Shown: piece by piece, positions 1 through 5,917 of the stretch | How the letters are laid out: the number at the start of each line of letters is the position of its first letter | Numbering within the stretch: position 1 is the stretch's first letter | NCBI GenBank assembly: GCA_021791615.1 | Contig: JAJYWG010000490.1 | Coordinates: 1-5,917, forward strand | Source: Actinomycetes bacterium | GTDB lineage: Bacteria > Actinomycetota > Acidimicrobiia > Acidimicrobiales > RAAP-2 | Reading direction: 5' to 3' | Length of the DNA stretch: 5,917 nucleotides | The notes under the pieces: generated by a model | Database searches by the model: none | The model's input: the letters and a program-made list of their open reading frames with translations, nothing else | What the model was told of the DNA's origin: nothing | Program-made: the position numbers and the translations under genes

Positions 1-989
1 AACCTCGGAGCTGACGCTCCGAGCAGGGCTTCGCCCCGCACCCCGACCTCGCGTCGCGACCACTGGCCCGAGGATGGCACCGGTAATTCTCTTGTCAGCT
101 TGCGTCTATCTGTCACCGGCGCGCCACCGCGGTCGTCCACCGGCATCGCCCGGTACCTGGCGTCAACGCGCGTGGGGTCTTTTCCTCCCGACATGGCGAT
201 GTCGACGCCCGAACGCGCCAAGATGGTCTGGATCACCGACCGAGCTTGCGGCGCCAGCTCGGAGAGGGGCCGGTTGCGGTGGCGGCGCTCGCCGAGGTCC
301 ACCTCGGCCATGGCACCGAGCCCGATGCGTCGTGCCACGTCGATGAGCGCGGCCACGTCGACTCCGTAGTCGGAAGGCAGCGCCAGGCCGTCGAGCACGG
401 ACCGCCGAGCCGCGATCTCGCCGGCCAGCGGTTGCCCGAAGCAGGCGAGGTCCGGTTGGAGCAGTGCCAGGAGCGGCTTGGCCGCAAGCTCGGTGACCCT
501 GCCCCCTTCCCCGGGCATCCCGGCGAGTGGCCGGCGGTAGGTGGCCTTCACGAAACCGATGCTCCGGTCGCTGAGCAACGGTCCGAGCAGTCCGACGACG
601 AAATGTGACGAGAAGGACTCGATGTCGGCGTCCAAGAAGACCACGAGATCCCCGCGGCTCTCGGCCAAAGCGGTCGCCATCGCCGCACCCTTCCCGGGTG
701 CAGAGCCTGCGGGCACCGCCACCGGCAGCACCGTGGCACCAGCAGTGGCTGCGACCGAGGCGGTGGCATCGCAGGAACGGTCGTCCACGACGAGGATCTC
801 GTCGACGAGGCGGACGTTGCCTGCAAGGTCTTCTCTGATGGTCGCCACGATGCGGCCGATCGTGGTCGCTTCGTCGCGGGCGGGCAGGCACACCGAGATT
901 GTCACGGCTTTCTTCGCCTGTGCGAGCGCCTGAGCCGTGAACTTCCAGTGGGAGAATCGCCGCGGGCCGGCCAGCCCGCCGGAGCTCAC
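1..989 (-). CDS. gpgS: glucosyl-3-phosphoglycerate synthase-like glycosyltransferase (GT81), open at left edge
   Basis: By family, it transfers glucose from an NDP-glucose to 3-phosphoglycerate in the cytoplasm, the first step toward glucosylglycerate or methylglucose lipopolysaccharides. The frame was read by hand and is uninterrupted from GTG 989 to base 1 (about 329 residues). GT-A fold signs in order are the strand TISVCLPARDEATTI (about 31-45), PGKG with Lys100, the metal-binding DAD at 120-122, GGRVTELAAKPLL with Arg164 and Thr166 (acceptor site in mycobacterial GpgS), and ERRHRNRPL with Arg235 and His237. These match the order and content of mycobacterial GpgS (about 324 aa). The GTG start overlaps the folE stop as GTGA, which implies translational coupling. 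No clear Shine-Dalgarno is present; an in-frame GTG at 998 is an alternative. The expected C-terminus falls near base 80, but no stop occurs there, and the tail contains rare TTA and AGA codons. Function is inferred from motifs; a related NDP-sugar transferase is possible. Confidence 0.85.
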   Translation of the reverse strand, partial: MSSGGLAGPRRFSHWKFTAQALAQAKKAVTISVCLPARDEATTIGRIVATIREDLAGNVRLVDEILVVDDRSCDATASVAATAGATVLPVAVPAGSAPGKGAAMATALAESRGDLVVFLDADIESFSSHFVVGLLGPLLSDRSIGFVKATYRRPLAGMPGEGGRVTELAAKPLLALLQPDLACFGQPLAGEIAARRSVLDGLALPSDYGVDVAALIDVARRIGLGAMAEVDLGERRHRNRPLSELAPQARSVIQTILARSGVDIAMSGGKDPTRVDARYRAMPVDDRGGAPVTDRRKLTRELPVPSSGQWSRREVGVRGEALLGASAPR

Positions 990-1606
990 GGACAGCACCC
1001 GACGATCGAGAAGAACTCCGCACGGGTCCGCTCGTCGTCGCGGACGATCCCGCCGAGCGCCGAGGTGACCGTCTTCGATCCCGCGGCACGAACCCCGCGC
1101 AGCGACATGCAGGCGTGCTCTGCCTCGAGGACCACGCCGACACCCTTGGGATGAAGGGCCCGTTCCAACGACTGGGCGACCTGGGTGGTGAGGCGTTCTT
1201 GGACCTGAAGACGCCGGGAGTAGTGGGCCACCACCCTTGCCAGCTTGGACAGACCGATGAGCCGATCCCCAGGCAGGTAGCCGACGTGGGCGAGGCCTGC
1301 GAAGGGAAGGAGGTGATGCTCGCACAACGAGGAGAAGGGGATCGAACGGGCCACGACCAGCTCGTCGTACCCCTCGACGTTGGCGAACGAGGTGGCCTCG
1401 AAGGGCTCTGGCGTGAGGAGCTCGGCATACGCGCGAGCGACGCGGGTCGGCGTGTCGGCGAGCCCGTCGCCGTCTCGGTCGACGCCCAGCGCGTCGAGCA
1501 GCTCGGAGACGGCGCGGGCTGCCCGCTGCAGGTCGATCTCGGACGGGACCTGCAGAAGCCCCAGGGTGTGCCGGCCCTCGTGGTGGTGGGTAGCGGTGAT
1601 CGCCAT
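986..1606 (-). CDS. folE: GTP cyclohydrolase I (FolE, zinc-dependent type IA)
   Basis: It converts GTP to 7,8-dihydroneopterin triphosphate, the first step of tetrahydrofolate and pterin synthesis, in the cytoplasm as a homodecamer. The 206-aa product has the family's usual length. The zinc ligands are visible as Cys95 and His98 in CEHHLLPF and Cys166 in ACMSLRGV. The 71-residue spacing between the two cysteines equals that of E. coli FolE (Cys110, Cys181). His97 is the counterpart of the catalytic His112. Other signatures are DTPTRVARAY (51-60) and GDRLIGLSKLARVV (113-126). The ATG start is supported by AAGGAG at 1613-1618, six bases upstream. The N-terminus MAITATHHHEGRH is unusually histidine-rich. 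The gene is divergent from the HTH regulator and ends in a GTGA overlap with gpgS. A palindrome covering its promoter implies repression control. Confidence 0.97.
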   Translation of the reverse strand: MAITATHHHEGRHTLGLLQVPSEIDLQRAARAVSELLDALGVDRDGDGLADTPTRVARAYAELLTPEPFEATSFANVEGYDELVVARSIPFSSLCEHHLLPFAGLAHVGYLPGDRLIGLSKLARVVAHYSRRLQVQERLTTQVAQSLERALHPKGVGVVLEAEHACMSLRGVRAAGSKTVTSALGGIVRDDERTRAEFFSIVGCCP

Positions 1607-1618: not shown

Positions 1619-1646
1619 TCTAAGATCAACTACTGTTCATCTTAGA
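1619..1646. promoter_or_regulatory. 28-bp palindromic operator candidate between folE and the regulator
   Basis: The left arm TCTAAGATCAAC (1619-1630) and right arm GTTCATCTTAGA (1635-1646) are inverted copies, matching at 11 of 12 positions around a 4-base centre TACT. The outer 8 bp of each arm are perfect. The element lies in an AT-rich island within GC-rich DNA. It covers the proposed folE -10 box and transcription start and stops next to the folE ribosome binding site, a classic place for a repressor to act. The divergent HTH gene is the obvious candidate for the binding protein; that pairing is inference. Confidence 0.75.
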
Positions 1647-1669
1647 TAGCGGACCATGTGTTCCGTCAA
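1639..1669 (-). promoter_or_regulatory. probable folE-gpgS promoter
   Basis: On the minus strand, TTGACG at 1669-1664 matches the -35 consensus at five of six bases. TAAGAT at 1644-1639 is a -10 candidate (four of six) after a 19-bp spacer, slightly longer than ideal. TCTAAG two bases upstream, with a 17-bp spacer, is a poorer hexamer. The -10 box lies inside the palindrome. The predicted transcript would have a leader of roughly 25 nt. Confidence 0.5.
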
Positions 1670-1682
1670 CTTCGACATGTTT

Positions 1683-1688
1683 TAGAAT
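1683..1688 (+). promoter_or_regulatory. -10 box for the HTH regulator, possibly leaderless
   Basis: TAGAAT matches the TATAAT consensus at five of six bases and lies eight bases before the in-frame GTG at 1697. That spacing would give a leaderless or near-leaderless transcript, which is common in actinobacteria. No convincing -35 is seen 16-18 bp upstream. Confidence 0.45.
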
Positions 1689-1696
1689 GGGTGGTC

Positions 1697-2419
1697 GTGG
1701 AAGCCGACACCGACTCCGGGCCCGACACACTGGCCGCGCTGGCGGTGCTGAACGAGCCGCTGCGCCGACGCGTCTACGAGCATGTGGCGTCTTCGCCAGG
1801 TGGTGAAGTGAGCCGCGATGGCGTCGCGGTCGCCCTCGGCGTACCGCGCTCGGTCGCCGTGTTCCACCTCGACAAGCTGGTGGACGCCGGCCTGCTCGAG
1901 GTCCGCTTCCACCGACCTCCCGGGCGGGGTGGCCCGGGGGCGGGTCGACCGGCCAAGTGGTACCGCCGGGCGTCAGGCGAGCTCACCGTGAGTGTGCCCG
2001 AGCGCCGCTACGTCCTCGCCGCCGAGCTCCTCGCCCGTGCGGTCGAACGGGTCGACGGGGTTGCCGGTGACCTCGCCATCGGTGACCTGCTCGCCGATGT
2101 CGCCCGGATGCATGGCCACGACATCGGCCGCGACCTTCGCCCGTCACCGACCGGGGCCCCACTCGGCGAATCTCAGCCGGCGCTGATCGAGCGTCTGGTC
2201 GGCTTGCTCGCCCGCCACGGCTACGAGCCGAGGCTGGCTGGCGGAGTGGTCACGATGGCCAACTGCCCCTTCCATGCCCTGGCGGAGGAACACCGCGACC
2301 TGGTCTGCCACATGAACCACGAGCTGCTCTCTGGTGTCGTCGAGGAGGCGGGTCTCGCCCCTGGGGCCGTCCGCCTCGACCCCGAGCCCGGACGCTGCTG
2401 CGTCACTATCGTCGCCTGA
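1697..2419 (+). CDS. SufR-like winged-helix regulator with C-terminal cysteine (Fe-S/metal) domain
   Basis: This is probably a cytoplasmic DNA-binding sensor. From GTG 1697 it has 240 residues. Residues 11-70 form an ArsR/SufR-type winged HTH (LNEPLRRRVYEHV, then the recognition segment RSVAVFHLDKLVDAGLLE). The wing/linker GPGAGRPAKWYRR (80-91) is typical of actinobacterial SufR-like regulators. The C-terminal part has NCPFH (Cys190), VCHMNH (Cys204, His205, His208) and RCC (Cys234, Cys235). This spacing of cysteines resembles the cluster-binding region of SufR, so an Fe-S cluster or metal ligand is likely but unproven. GTG 1697 is preferred because a -10 box (1683-1688) sits just upstream; the frame is open from GTG 1658 (253 aa), and GTG 1691 is also possible. 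It is divergent from folE with a palindrome between them, so it probably controls folE-gpgS and perhaps itself. The inducer is unknown. Confidence 0.85.
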   Translation: MEADTDSGPDTLAALAVLNEPLRRRVYEHVASSPGGEVSRDGVAVALGVPRSVAVFHLDKLVDAGLLEVRFHRPPGRGGPGAGRPAKWYRRASGELTVSVPERRYVLAAELLARAVERVDGVAGDLAIGDLLADVARMHGHDIGRDLRPSPTGAPLGESQPALIERLVGLLARHGYEPRLAGGVVTMANCPFHALAEEHRDLVCHMNHELLSGVVEEAGLAPGAVRLDPEPGRCCVTIVA

Positions 2420-2470: not shown

Positions 2471-2932
2471 TCAGCGCAGCGGGTTCTCGCCTCCGCGCTC
2501 TCCAGCCGGGCGAGTCCCGAAGATGCGCCGCTCCGACTCGGCGATGCGGACGTCGTTGATGCTCGCTTCTCGGCGGGACATCAGGCCGTGCTCGTCGAAC
2601 TCCCACAGCTCGTTGCCATAGCTGCGCCACCACTGGCCGCTCGCATCGTGGCTCTCGTACTGGTAGCGCACGGCAATCCGGTTGCCGTCGAAGGCCCACA
2701 GGTCCTTGCGCAGCGCGTAGTCGAGCTCGCGTGCCCACTTCTGACGGAGGAACGCGACGATCTCAGCCCGGCCGGTGACGAAGGTGTCGCGGTTGCGCCA
2801 CACCGAATCCTCGCTGTAGGCGAGGGCGACGCGTTCGGGGTCGCGGCTGTTCCAGGCGTCCTCGGCGCCCTTGACCTTCTGGAGCGCCGTGTCCCTCGAG
2901 AAGGGGCGTAGCGGTGGGCGTTGTTCGGTCAT
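2471..2932 (-). CDS. DUF1348 family protein (NTF2-like/SnoaL-like fold)
   Basis: This is a 153-aa soluble protein with the characteristic DUF1348 pattern. An N-terminal helix ([21 protein letters not shown]) is followed by [21 protein letters not shown], then [17 protein letters not shown]. The conserved core is [20 protein letters not shown] and ASINDVRI. The NTF2 fold forms a cone-shaped pocket; no activity has been firmly assigned to this family, and none is claimed here. ATG 2932 is chosen because AAGGAG (2940-2945) lies seven bases upstream and family homology begins there, although the frame is open far upstream. It follows the channel gene by 56 bp and may be its last co-transcribed partner. 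A link to nitrate respiration rests on position alone. Confidence 0.9.
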
Positions 2933-2939
2933 GGTCGAT

Positions 2940-2945
2940 CTCCTT
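2940..2945 (-). promoter_or_regulatory. ribosome binding site of the DUF1348 gene
   Basis: AAGGAG on the minus strand lies seven bases before ATG 2932. It decides the start against a long in-frame upstream extension that is a shadow of the channel gene. Confidence 0.75.
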
Positions 2946-2988
2946 CTTCCTCGGCGCGAGCGTCTCGTGGGGCAAGCTGGGCGCGCGC

Positions 2989-4047
2989 TCACAGGGGGAC
3001 TCCGCGCATCGGCCGCCGGTGAGCGACGAGCACCCGCACGAGGGCGGCGCCCATCAACACGAGCACGGCGACCCACGCGGCGACCCCGACCCACACCCAC
3101 ACCCGGGCGATCGACGCCATGAACCCGAGTCCAGGGACGCGCCCGAGGCTGAAGGAGGCAACGGTGTACATGCCGAGGGGGAACACGACGTTCCACAGTC
3201 TCGGCTCGTAGGTGCGCGGGTAGCGGCGCAGCACGTAGCGCCAGAAGCCCAAGAGCACGAGCAGGGGGATCCACCAGGTGCCGAACGCCCACAGCACCAC
3301 GGACAGGCCGGTGACGAACGGTCGTAGCAGCGCCACGAGCACCGTCGCTCGAGGGTCGCGGAGAACGAGGATCCCCGCTGCAGCCCGGACACTGATGGCG
3401 GTCGCGCCCATGGCGATCCAGTAGGCCGGCCCCATCTCGGCAGGGGTGACCTCGATCAAGAGGAGCCGTAGGAAGATGATGACGATGAGGACGAGGTAGA
3501 GCATGACGCCCAGCCCCCACAGACAGACCGCTATGGCCGGTAGGTCAGCCCGAAGCCACGATGCGGGGGCGCTCGGCGTGACGGCGGCCGCCACGATGGA
3601 CAGAGACTGGGTGGCGACGACCCACACCAGCCAGGTTCCGTTGATCTCGCCGAGCACCGGTCGGCGGGCGGCGGCAACGATCGACCACGGCAGCGCGTAG
3701 GTGAGCCCGACCCACACGACGGCCGCGGCGGCGCCGAGCGCAAAGGCGACGAGGGGATCGCCGGCCAGCACGAGGCGGACGGCGAGCACATCGGTGCCGG
3801 CAACCACGGTGAAGAACGCCATGGCGGTGGTCGGGTCGGCCGCGCTCTGGCGGACAAAGGACCTGTAGAACGCGAAGCGCGCCGCGTAGGCGAGCACCAG
3901 CGCGACGAAGGCGGCGACCGTCACGCCGAGGATGACCTGGGAGAGCAGCTGGTAGCCGAGGAGGTCCGCGCCGATCGAGACGATGCCCGTCGCCATCACC
4001 CAGGCGAAGTAGCCGGGGTCGAGGGTGGCGAGGTTTCGACGCACCAT
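2989..4047 (-). CDS. TehA/SLAC1-family membrane channel or transporter (TDT family)
   Basis: This is an integral membrane protein of 352 aa with about ten hydrophobic segments, the usual size for the tellurite-resistance/dicarboxylate transporter (TDT) family. Family-type stretches in order are [18 protein letters not shown] in the first helix, [20 protein letters not shown] mid-protein, [13 protein letters not shown], and [18 protein letters not shown] near the C-terminus. Characterised relatives include bacterial TehA and the plant anion channel SLAC1, which passes chloride and nitrate; others move dicarboxylates or sulfite. The substrate cannot be read from the sequence. ATG 4047 is preferred because homology begins there and a GGCGGG stretch lies just before it. 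The frame is open to GTG 4173, which would add a 42-residue charged, proline-rich tail. It follows narI on the same strand, so nitrate or nitrite movement is an attractive inference. Confidence 0.85.
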
Positions 4048-4203
4048 CCCGCCTGGCACCGGCAAGGAAGCGGTGCGCCTCTGCTGCTCGCCTCGTCGGG
4101 CTTCCCGGAGCTCGGGGTCAGGCCGGGCTTCTGGCGAGGGACCGCCTGACGCGCCGAGCCAGCTCACCGCCACATCCCGCAGCCCGGCGTCGCCATCGCG
4201 GAT

Positions 4204-4221
4204 CCTCGGCGTGGGCCGAGG
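4204..4221 (-). terminator. stem-loop after narI, possible terminator or mRNA 3' end
   Basis: CCTCGGC (4204-4210) and GCCGAGG (4215-4221) form a perfect 7-bp stem with a 4-base loop, four bases past the narI stop. No U-tract follows, as is common in actinobacteria, so it could be a weak terminator or a stabilising 3' end. It suggests that the channel gene may have its own promoter in 4048-4203, where no clear -35/-10 pair is visible. Confidence 0.45.
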
Positions 4222-4225
4222 CGGC

Positions 4226-4978
4226 TCAATAGTGCACCCCGATCCGACGCCACCGCCGCCCGCTCGTCCCCGGTTCGTTGGGTCGCGTGGCGCGGCGACT
4301 GCGGTAGACGACGAAGGGCCGCCACATGTACCAGACCGGGGCGCTCCAGGCGTGCACGAGCCGGGTGAAGGGCCAGGCGGCGATGATGAGCCACGCCAGG
4401 CTCACGTGGATCTGGTAGAGCACCGGTGCGCCTGCGATGGCATGGACGTTGGGGTCGCCGGCGAAGAGGCTGCGGAACCACACCGACACGGTGGTCCGGT
4501 AGTTGTAGCCGGCACCGAGGAGGTTGACGCCCGTCGTCATCGCCATGCCGAAGGCGACCTCGATGAGCAGCAGGACCAAGATGAACCAGTCGACGGGGCT
4601 GGTCGTGGCGCGCACCCGGGTGACGAAGATCCGTCGGCCTGCCAGGATGGCGATGCCGATGAGGACGCCAACCACGGCGACGGTGCCTGCAGAGGCTGAG
4701 AACCACCGGTACACCGGTTCGGAGATGCCGATCGCCTTGGTCCACGTCGAAGGGATGAGGATCCCGATGACGTGGCCGCCGATGGCGAGGAACGTCGCGT
4801 AGTGGAAGATCGGCCCGCCCCAGCGGAGCCAACGCTTCTCCTGGAGCTCGGTGGAGCGGGTGGTCCATCCGAACTGGTCGTAGCGGTAGCGCCAGATGTG
4901 TCCGATCACGAAGATCGCGATCGCGACGTAGGGGATGACGGCCCACCAGAAGATCTCGAGGCCCGAGACGCCGCTCAC
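4226..4978 (-). CDS. narI: respiratory nitrate reductase gamma subunit (cytochrome b, NarI)
   Basis: This membrane diheme cytochrome b takes electrons from quinol and passes them to NarH and then NarG at the cytoplasmic face. The 250-aa product has five hydrophobic segments, the family norm. All four heme-ligand histidines are visible: His59 and His69 (HYATFLAIGGH), and His191 and His209 (QIHVSLAW and RLVHAWSAPVWY). The spacings of 10 and 18 residues equal those of E. coli NarI (56/66 and 187/205). The start is GTG 4978, which overlaps the narJ stop as GTGA; a GGGAG lies ten bases upstream. The frame is open further upstream but is then a shadow of narJ. The tail after RPFVVYRSRR is basic and cytoplasmic. 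Confidence 0.95.
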   Translation of the reverse strand: MSGVSGLEIFWWAVIPYVAIAIFVIGHIWRYRYDQFGWTTRSTELQEKRWLRWGGPIFHYATFLAIGGHVIGILIPSTWTKAIGISEPVYRWFSASAGTVAVVGVLIGIAILAGRRIFVTRVRATTSPVDWFILVLLLIEVAFGMAMTTGVNLLGAGYNYRTTVSVWFRSLFAGDPNVHAIAGAPVLYQIHVSLAWLIIAAWPFTRLVHAWSAPVWYMWRPFVVYRSRRATRPNEPGTSGRRWRRIGVHY

Positions 4979-5616
4979 CGCCGGGTTGCTCCCATCGTGA
5001 CGGCGTGGCCGAGGGTCTCGGGGGGAGCGAAGGGCTCGAGCCCAACTTTCTCCGACGGCGGGCCGTCCGCCCGGTACTGGCGCAGCGCCTCGCGGTCGGT
5101 GCGCGACGGTCCGGGCAGGACACTGCGCACCGCGGCGACGGCGTCGGCGTACGGGCTGTCTTTCTTGACAAGCACGCCGTGAAGGGCGTCGAGGGCCATG
5201 CGGTGCTCGCCGAGCACGGTGGCGCCGGCCGTGCTCGCGGCGGCCAGCTCCAACAGCGCAGGGAGGTAGTCGGGAAGCTCGCCGGGAACGACCCCGAACC
5301 CGGCGTCGCGGAAGGCCTCGACCAAGGCGGTGAGCGCCATGCCCCGCTCGCGCGTGTCGCCGTGACGGTAGTAGGTGAGGTACAGGCAGATCCCGCGGGA
5401 GAGGTCGAAGACGTCCACGTAGGTCTTCGCCGCCTCCACCACCGGCATCGGCGCCAGCCATTCGACAACCCGCTGGAGCTTGGCGCGCGCCGAGGTGCCC
5501 GGGAGCCTCTCGAGAGCCTCCTGCACCGCTGCCAGGTCGCTGGAGAAATCCCCGTCAGGGTAGCTGAGTAGCACCGACGCGCAGCCGAAGATCGTCGCTG
5601 CCACCTGGGGCCTCAT
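4975..5616 (-). CDS. narJ: nitrate reductase assembly chaperone (delta subunit, NarJ)
   Basis: This cytoplasmic chaperone binds NarG during insertion of the molybdenum cofactor and Fe-S cluster and holds the complex until it docks on NarI; it is not part of the final enzyme. The 213-aa all-helical protein shows the family core: SVLLSYPDGDF (14-24), then YVDVFDLSRGICLYLTYY (66-83) followed directly by RHGDTRERG, and ELPDYLPALLEL (113-124). ATG 5616 overlaps the narH stop as ATGA, and the gene ends in a GTGA overlap with narI, so the three are translationally chained. The proline- and charge-rich C-terminus (from about 170) is less conserved in character. Confidence 0.95.
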   Translation of the reverse strand: MRPQVAATIFGCASVLLSYPDGDFSSDLAAVQEALERLPGTSARAKLQRVVEWLAPMPVVEAAKTYVDVFDLSRGICLYLTYYRHGDTRERGMALTALVEAFRDAGFGVVPGELPDYLPALLELAAASTAGATVLGEHRMALDALHGVLVKKDSPYADAVAAVRSVLPGPSRTDREALRQYRADGPPSEKVGLEPFAPPETLGHAVTMGATRR

Positions 5617-5917
5617 AGGGCCCCGCCAGCGCCGGCCAGGCCGACCGACCCGGGCTCGGAGTGCTCGGAGACCCGCAGGTGCAGCCGGCCCTTCGGATCG
5701 CGCCCGGCGACCGAGGCGTCCGCCGAGTCCAGACGCTGAAGGTGGAACCCGGGCACCGCCTCCGCTTCAGGACCGCCTCCACCCATGCCCGGTCCGCCGT
5801 CACCCTCGAGTGAGCAGCCCGACAGGTCGTGCTGGGCGAGGAGGCGTCCGGCGTCTTCGGCATGCGCTGGGGGCACGACGTAGCGGTCCTCGTAGCGGGC
5901 GATGGCAAGAAGCCGGA
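5613..5917 (-). CDS. narH: respiratory nitrate reductase beta subunit, C-terminal end only (NarH)
   Basis: Only the last 100 residues are in the window; the start and the four Fe-S cluster motifs lie beyond the right edge. NarH carries electrons from NarI hemes to NarG. The assignment rests on the segment ARYEDRYVVPPAHAEDA, which matches the NarH C-terminal pattern (RYVIPTAHRE in mycobacteria), on a following GCSLEG region, and above all on its position immediately before narJ with a 4-nt ATGA overlap. A glycine-rich stretch (GGPGMGGGG) and a loosely conserved tail follow. The GTG at 5876 is internal and is not the start. Confidence 0.87.
   Translation of the reverse strand, partial: RLLAIARYEDRYVVPPAHAEDAGRLLAQHDLSGCSLEGDGGPGMGGGGPEAEAVPGFHLQRLDSADASVAGRDPKGRLHLRVSEHSEPGSVGLAGAGGAL

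Follow-up and report, generated by a model that had tools for sequence, protein, structure and literature searches.

ArnR and SufR are among the described systems closest to the one treated here. According to passages of PMC12343034, ArnR of Corynebacterium glutamicum is a [4Fe-4S], nitric oxide (NO)-sensing repressor of narKGHJI and hmp with the cysteines Cys179, Cys193 and Cys223, and Rv2621c of Mycobacterium tuberculosis is termed ArnR-like. SufR, the [4Fe-4S] suf repressor of cyanobacteria, Streptomyces avermitilis and Mycobacterium, carries the cysteine motif C-X12-C-X13-C-X14-C and has the operator CAAC-N6-GTTG (passages of PMC8593673). The DNA analyzed here, called the window, is a whole stretch of 5,917 nucleotides from an Acidimicrobiales bacterium (contig JAJYWG010000490.1). 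It contains a 28-bp palindrome between the gene folE and a divergent regulator gene. Sequence comparison indicates that this palindrome is a real, conserved, and apparently undescribed operator with a likely regulator and a small regulon; binding by that regulator and the signal are predicted.

Positions 1619..1646, no strand: predicted operator O1, TCTAAGATCAAC-TACT-GTTCATCTTAGA, 28 bp, with the conserved core TCTA-N20-TAGA, over the presumed folE -10 box and start.
Positions 1697..2419, plus strand: divergent regulator with an HTH_20 winged helix and a cysteine domain (Cys190, Cys204, Cys234, and Cys235, counted from the GTG at 1697).
Positions 989..1606, minus strand: folE, GTP cyclohydrolase I of the accessory type, above the cut-offs of PF01227 and TIGR00063, with residues 1-23 from a lost DoxX-like gene.

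The palindrome had been described in an earlier note on this DNA, and the description was exact: it runs from 1619 to 1646 around the spacer TACT, and its 12-bp arms pair at 11 of 12 positions. No other palindrome in the window has 12-bp arms with one mismatch or none at a gap of 0-8, and this one takes up most of the folE side of the folE-regulator gap. When the 90-bp intergenic stretch (44% GC) was shuffled by dinucleotides, 26 of 20,000 cases reached at least 11/12 paired positions at any gap of 0-8. Shuffles of the whole 5.9-kb window reached at least this arm match in 22 of 60 cases, and therefore, the symmetry by itself is not decisive, and conservation has to decide. The motif TCTAA-N18-TTAGA with up to two mismatches occurs a single time in the window, at O1, against an expectation of 0.17.

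Conservation was quantified at 80 loci with regulator relatives (L001-L080), which were picked by protein sequence alone. After omission of L008, a duplicate of L007, and the truncated L010, 78 loci were kept, and about 270 bp around the regulator start was searched at each. The earlier note had named an absence of the palindrome from orthologous regions as the result that would speak against an operator; TCTA-N20-TAGA was found in 59 of the 78 loci, compared with a mean of 0.045 in shuffled regions. TCTA and TAGA at other spacings from 0 to 57 never occurred in more than 6 loci. A small peak at 58-60 (11, 8, and 3 loci) represents, we think, the left end of O1 paired with the TAGA of the next site. 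The remainder of the loci, 858 kb, contained 9 matches. Streptomyces contributed 22 of the 78 loci, with the site in 21, and the non-Streptomyces loci had it in 38 of 56 cases. Among the nine closest relatives (L001-L007, L009, L014), the site was exact in seven, while L003 retained 9 and L005 retained 7 of the 10 letters of TCTAA-N18-TTAGA. The commonest letters at the site are TTCTA[A/T]CG.CAACT....T T.ACG[T/A]TAGAA. The palindrome at 1619-1646 is thus conserved, but what is kept is the outer TCTA and TAGA, the 28-bp length, and the CAAC-type inner element, and not the full symmetry. Because the inner arm letters are weakly kept in the relatives, the near-perfect symmetry of the window copy is partly luck.

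The site is also specific for the regulator clade. At 23 further loci of the window clade, it was exact in 17 (Acidimicrobiia 12/16, Mycobacteriaceae 5/7); two of these loci repeat counted ones (the L138 regulator is that of L016, and L133 and L025 are one Rhodococcus opacus locus), which leaves 15 of 21 as new. Related regulators outside the clade had TCTA-N20-TAGA at 0 of 28 loci (0/12, 0/6, 0/8 SufR-type, and 0/2 Corynebacterium-type). This absence is not due to short sequences, because the loci are 2.5-10 kb long; L156, a fragment, and L224, L229-L231, L236, and L237 were left out of the comparison. The related Acidimicrobiia regulator clade of L152-L164, with a CPF...C.LD motif and about 130-140 bits to the profile, is without this operator. 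At L150, three exact sites lie within 1 kb around one regulator (1219-1285 and 2184-2211), two of them 39 bp apart; the paired sites adjoin a lipoprotein-like frame, and a frame that by eye resembles a P-type ATPase/hemerythrin lies on the other side.

In the 18 genomes behind the loci, TCTAW-N18-WTAGA has 0-4 copies per genome, and most of these are found at the regulator gene or operon. Eight extra copies were inspected, and four belong to the system. In S. coeruleorubidus, one copy precedes an accessory folE and is separated from the regulator by about 340 kb. The palsa_655 copy, which likewise precedes folE, has a second regulator-like frame next to it and the main site at a distance of about 6 kb. 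The Actinophytocola copy separates a second regulator from folE-reductase, and the last one marks an additional copy of the locus in G002, a genome with three copies (L002, L009, L090). At L081, L083, L093, and L099, no system gene was present in the 3 kb inspected, and these sites may be due to chance. Of the 20 exact sites in 61 Streptomyces genomes, 12 lie no more than 170 bp from a regulator match (10 at the 5′ and 2 at the 3′ side), 1 precedes an accessory folE, and 7 are elsewhere; a regulator match at an E value of 1e-20 was found in 23 of these genomes. The site is not merely a frequent word, because the reversed control pattern was commoner than the site in the same 61 genomes. Among the matches listed in open-licence PMC, from which subscription journals are largely missing, there was no paper on this operator, on the regulator clade, or on an ArsR-type regulator of an accessory folE. 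Together with the retention of the site in orthologous regions, this supports the earlier suggestion of a possibly undescribed operator; the circuit resembles known repressor circuits, and the operator itself is apparently new.

The regulator combines an ArsR-type winged helix with a cysteine domain and falls in a clade of its own, apart from the ArnR-type regulators and SufR. It passed HTH_20 (PF12840) with 35.9 bits at a cut-off of 27. A reading as an ArsR/SmtB metalloregulator was rejected, as NF033788 scored 24 bits and its curated cut-off is 55. Pfam contained no family for the C-terminal domain, and a PDB sequence search with the regulator gave one match, an ArsR. A fold search with the whole protein covered mainly the N-terminal half, and the C-terminal domain was therefore modelled alone; the model has the V4R sensor domains of MopR, PoxR, and DmpR among its structural neighbours. 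The cysteine pattern is C-X13-C-X29-CC, with Cys190, Cys204, and Cys234 invariant in 37 sequences and all four positions invariant in 44 (A1 comprises 36 of 120 listed proteins and that of the window, A3 comprises 21 of 102). A quick tree was calculated with 37 of the 80 loci L001-L080, with 3 short rows dropped and C. glutamicum ArnR itself not among the rows. It separated the window clade (67 rows, SH-aLRT 98) from a Corynebacterium clade (13 rows, 99), and the 8 SufR rows formed their own clade. The listed relatives with an NCBI organism were Acidimicrobiales metagenome-assembled genomes (MAGs) in 11 of 12 cases, and 1 was labelled Nitrososphaerales. The clade extends across Actinomycetota, and regulators were also found in two Chloroflexota MAGs and one Dormibacterota MAG; the viral contigs searched contained no relatives.

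The window regulator resembles ArnR in its winged helix of the ArsR/MarR type, in three conserved cysteines with the spacing C-X13-C-X29-C (Cys190, Cys204, and Cys234), and in the position of its gene beside narHJI. By modelling, the C-terminal domain may be TRAPPC3-like as well. In contrast to ArnR, it has an extra cysteine (CC) and an NCPF motif, its neighbours are a doxX-like gene and folE and not hmp or narK, and its clade is separate from the nar-linked Corynebacterium regulators in the tree, which did not include C. glutamicum ArnR. In addition, TCTA-N20-TAGA was absent at both Corynebacterium-type loci examined. With SufR, the system shares a helix-turn-helix domain with C-terminal cysteines, putative autorepression, and a palindrome with a CAAC half, as far as SufR is described in passages of PMC8593673. 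A SufR reading was nevertheless rejected, as there was no TIGR02702 match at an E value of 0.01, and the cysteine pattern, the operator spacing (a 28-bp TCTA-N20-TAGA site with an inner CAAC-N4-GTTC), and the clade all differ; there is also no suf gene in the window. Of the likeness to SufR noted earlier, the shared inner CAAC and a distant relationship of the regulators remain.

The promoter layout, in which the three promoter boxes are inferred from the sequence, includes a second operator.

Positions 1664..1669, minus strand: presumed folE -35 box, TTGACG, inside O2.
Positions 1639..1644, minus strand: presumed folE -10 box, TAAGAT, inside the right arm of O1.
Positions 1683..1688, plus strand: presumed regulator -10 box, TAGAAT, aligned in 9 loci.
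Positions 1659..1686, no strand: predicted operator O2, TGTTCCGTCAACTTCGACATGTTTTAGA, over the presumed regulator -10 box, beginning 40 bp after O1.

On the minus strand, TTGACG (1664-1669) is followed after 19 nt by TAAGAT (1639-1644), and then by AAAGGAG (1613-1619) and the ATG at 1604-1606. This order agrees with the earlier placement of O1, over the -10 box and start of folE and reaching the margin of its ribosome binding site. A consensus promoter scan restricted to spacers of 16-18 nt reported no promoter. The regulator message is probably leaderless and would start near the GTG at 1697. Where the earlier note described a single palindrome, the conserved motifs point to two operators. 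In the window, O2 extends from CAAC at 1667 through TTAGA ending at 1686, across the TAGAAT box of the regulator; it has CAAC-N11-TTAGA in common with O1 and is less symmetric. When O1 was masked, CAA[C/T]-N11-[T/C]TA[G/C]A was found in 47 of the 78 loci, compared with 0.08 in shuffles, and the same pattern with N6-N10 or N12-N17 was found in none of them. The start of O2 lies 37-41 bp beyond that of O1 in 41 of 43 pairings. The folE-regulator gap is therefore read as a two-operator divergent promoter, with O2 as the putative autorepression site.

The folE gene under this promoter appears to be a second, accessory copy. The window FolE scored 201.4 with TIGR00063 (cut-off 181.6) and 214.5 with PF01227 (cut-off 27). 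A folE search in 12 of the 18 genomes yielded 10 matches of at least 243 bits, which we take to be the housekeeping copies, 10 matches of 205-221 bits, and 5 weaker ones. All 10 members of the 205-221-bit class have an exact site no more than 1.1 kb away, while none of the 10 housekeeping copies and none of the five weaker matches does. Around 79 loci (only L008 was dropped for this count), the recurrent families were a DoxX-like membrane protein (47 loci), folE (34), and a ferredoxin-reductase-like flavoprotein with Pyr_redox_2 and Reductase_C domains (31). The DoxX match is weak, with one of three members scanned over the Pfam cut-off. Two fragmentary folE matches in Streptomyces (G432:C406:5047-5253 and G445:C2:322777-323150) adjoin the regulator, as if the accessory folE were decaying there. 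A gene that by eye resembles transaldolase is repeatedly found close to the regulator or the accessory folE, at 9 loci (L012 and L016 are examples) and also at L100. The passages of PMC5069765 that deal with the OsdR dormancy cluster of Streptomyces mention neither folE nor transaldolase.

O1 does stand at folE in the window, as had been noted, but at most loci the DoxX-like gene comes first under the site. At the 78 loci, the DoxX-like gene is divergent across the site in 49 (44 with exact O1) and folE in 12 (7), folE lies downstream on the regulator strand in 6 (1), and 11 (7) are arranged otherwise. In the nearest kin of the window, the DoxX-like gene sits between O1 and folE. The window FolE opens with the first 23 residues of the DoxX-like protein as found in L001 and then continues as FolE, and the DNA alignment contains the shared stretch. 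The comparison shows that a deletion of roughly 1 kb, which took away most of the DoxX-like gene, fused its first 23 codons to folE and left the frame open, so that folE captured the start codon and promoter of its upstream neighbour. An assembly error was considered and rejected: the same DoxX-like/FolE junction is present in P0121, a distinct protein cluster (10 members, 98% identical), though this cluster may be of the same lineage. Control by O1 is not new for folE, because folE adjoins O1 in other families too.

Based on these results, we consider it likely that O1 is the operator of the divergent regulator, and that dimers at O1 and O2 repress folE and the regulator gene until the cofactor of the cysteine domain is lost or modified. 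A dimer on O1 would cover the -10 box and the transcription start of folE and block RNA polymerase, and a dimer on O2, 40 bp away, would cover the regulator's own -10 box and cause self-repression. Loss or modification of the cofactor, most likely an Fe-S cluster, would be triggered, as for ArnR, by NO or a different reactive species; the dimers would then leave the DNA, and both genes would be expressed. The regulon would be tiny, usually with the DoxX-like membrane protein and the accessory GTP cyclohydrolase I, and often with the ferredoxin-reductase-like flavoprotein. This account starts from the presence, spacing, conservation, and clade-specificity of the site, the gene order, the folE duplication, and the fusion. 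Binding by this regulator, repression, one dimer per site, the cofactor, and the signal are what it would add.

With regard to the signal, the genes on the remainder of the window have to be considered.

Within positions 2474-5917, minus strand: DUF1348 protein, SLAC1/TDT transporter, narI, narJ, and the end of narH.
Positions 3-989, minus strand: glucosyl-3-phosphoglycerate synthase, cut by the window.

In 2474-5917, narHJI is followed by the SLAC1/TDT-family transporter and then the DUF1348 protein, and a DUF1348 gene also adjoins the regulator in a Nocardiopsis MAG (L024). The regulator is thus near the respiratory nitrate reductase genes narI, narJ, and narH, and the Mycobacteriaceae genome L197 independently combines a DoxX-like gene, O1, a clade regulator, and narI. 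An NO/Fe-S signal is proposed because of the likeness to ArnR and the nar neighbours in the window lineage and L197. Tentatively, the regulators may form an actinobacterial family of cysteine-cluster repressors that is undescribed and akin to ArnR and SufR. This family may use two dedicated operators to control a pterin module of DoxX-like protein, second GTP cyclohydrolase I, and ferredoxin reductase that is induced by NO or redox conditions. The case for NO is weakened by the scarcity of narI, which lies close to 7 of the 80 regulator loci, all of them close kin of the window.

The main rival to an NO signal, possible but doubtful, is that the divergent regulator binds the site and its V4R/TRAPPC3-like domain accommodates a hydrophobic or aromatic small molecule, possibly along with structural zinc, as in MopR or PoxR. 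The V4R sensor domains of MopR, PoxR, and DmpR belong to phenol-binding activators. Their likeness to the regulator lies in the structural neighbourhood of the C-terminal model, and no sequence similarity was seen. The cysteine spacing, however, equals that of ArnR, whose [4Fe-4S] cluster is measured, the four cysteine positions are invariant, and the linked folE and ferredoxin reductase suggest redox and not aromatics.

It is improbable that the site is bound by some other protein widespread in Actinomycetota and that the adjacent helix-turn-helix gene is incidental. Binding by the regulator is predicted, and 7 of the 20 exact Streptomyces sites lie away from regulator and folE, which would suit another protein, but the site tracks the regulator clade, is missing at all 28 related-regulator loci, and is rare and mostly at the regulator gene or operon in the 18 genomes. 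We regard it as very improbable that the conserved letters are just two overlapping divergent promoters with TTGAC and TANNNT boxes and an incidental palindrome. TAAGAT and TAGAAT do resemble -10 boxes, and CGTCAA resembles a -35 box of the opposite strand. Yet the outer TCTA beside the ribosome binding site is no promoter box and still has TAGA at a distance of exactly 20 nt at 59 of the 78 loci, CAAC-N11-TTAGA is present in both operators, and the site also occurs ahead of a distant folE. An RNA hairpin or terminator is highly improbable: the inverted repeat is close to the transcription start, and positions 5 and 24 often covary (TCTAA/TTAGA or TCTAT/ATAGA), which fits a hairpin and a dimer site alike, but a terminator scan of the window gave no terminator-like site, the right arm of O1 would lie outside the folE message if the presumed -10 box is right, and the inner arm letters are weakly paired in relatives such as L001.

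The probable role of the regulator is to repress its own gene together with a few stress-type genes, among them one for an additional copy of a pterin-making enzyme. The motif is a precise DNA code for the regulator clade across Actinomycetota, which by itself allows the regulon of a genome to be listed, and it brings together a second folE, a DoxX-like protein, and a flavoprotein reductase as members of a single small regulon. If the pterin-module reading is true, it would imply a pterin product that acts under nitrosative or redox stress and has so far not been looked for. Should the sensor rely on an Fe-S cluster, as that of ArnR does, the regulator would represent a further lineage of that sensor type, and a link between pterins and stress physiology would be suggested.
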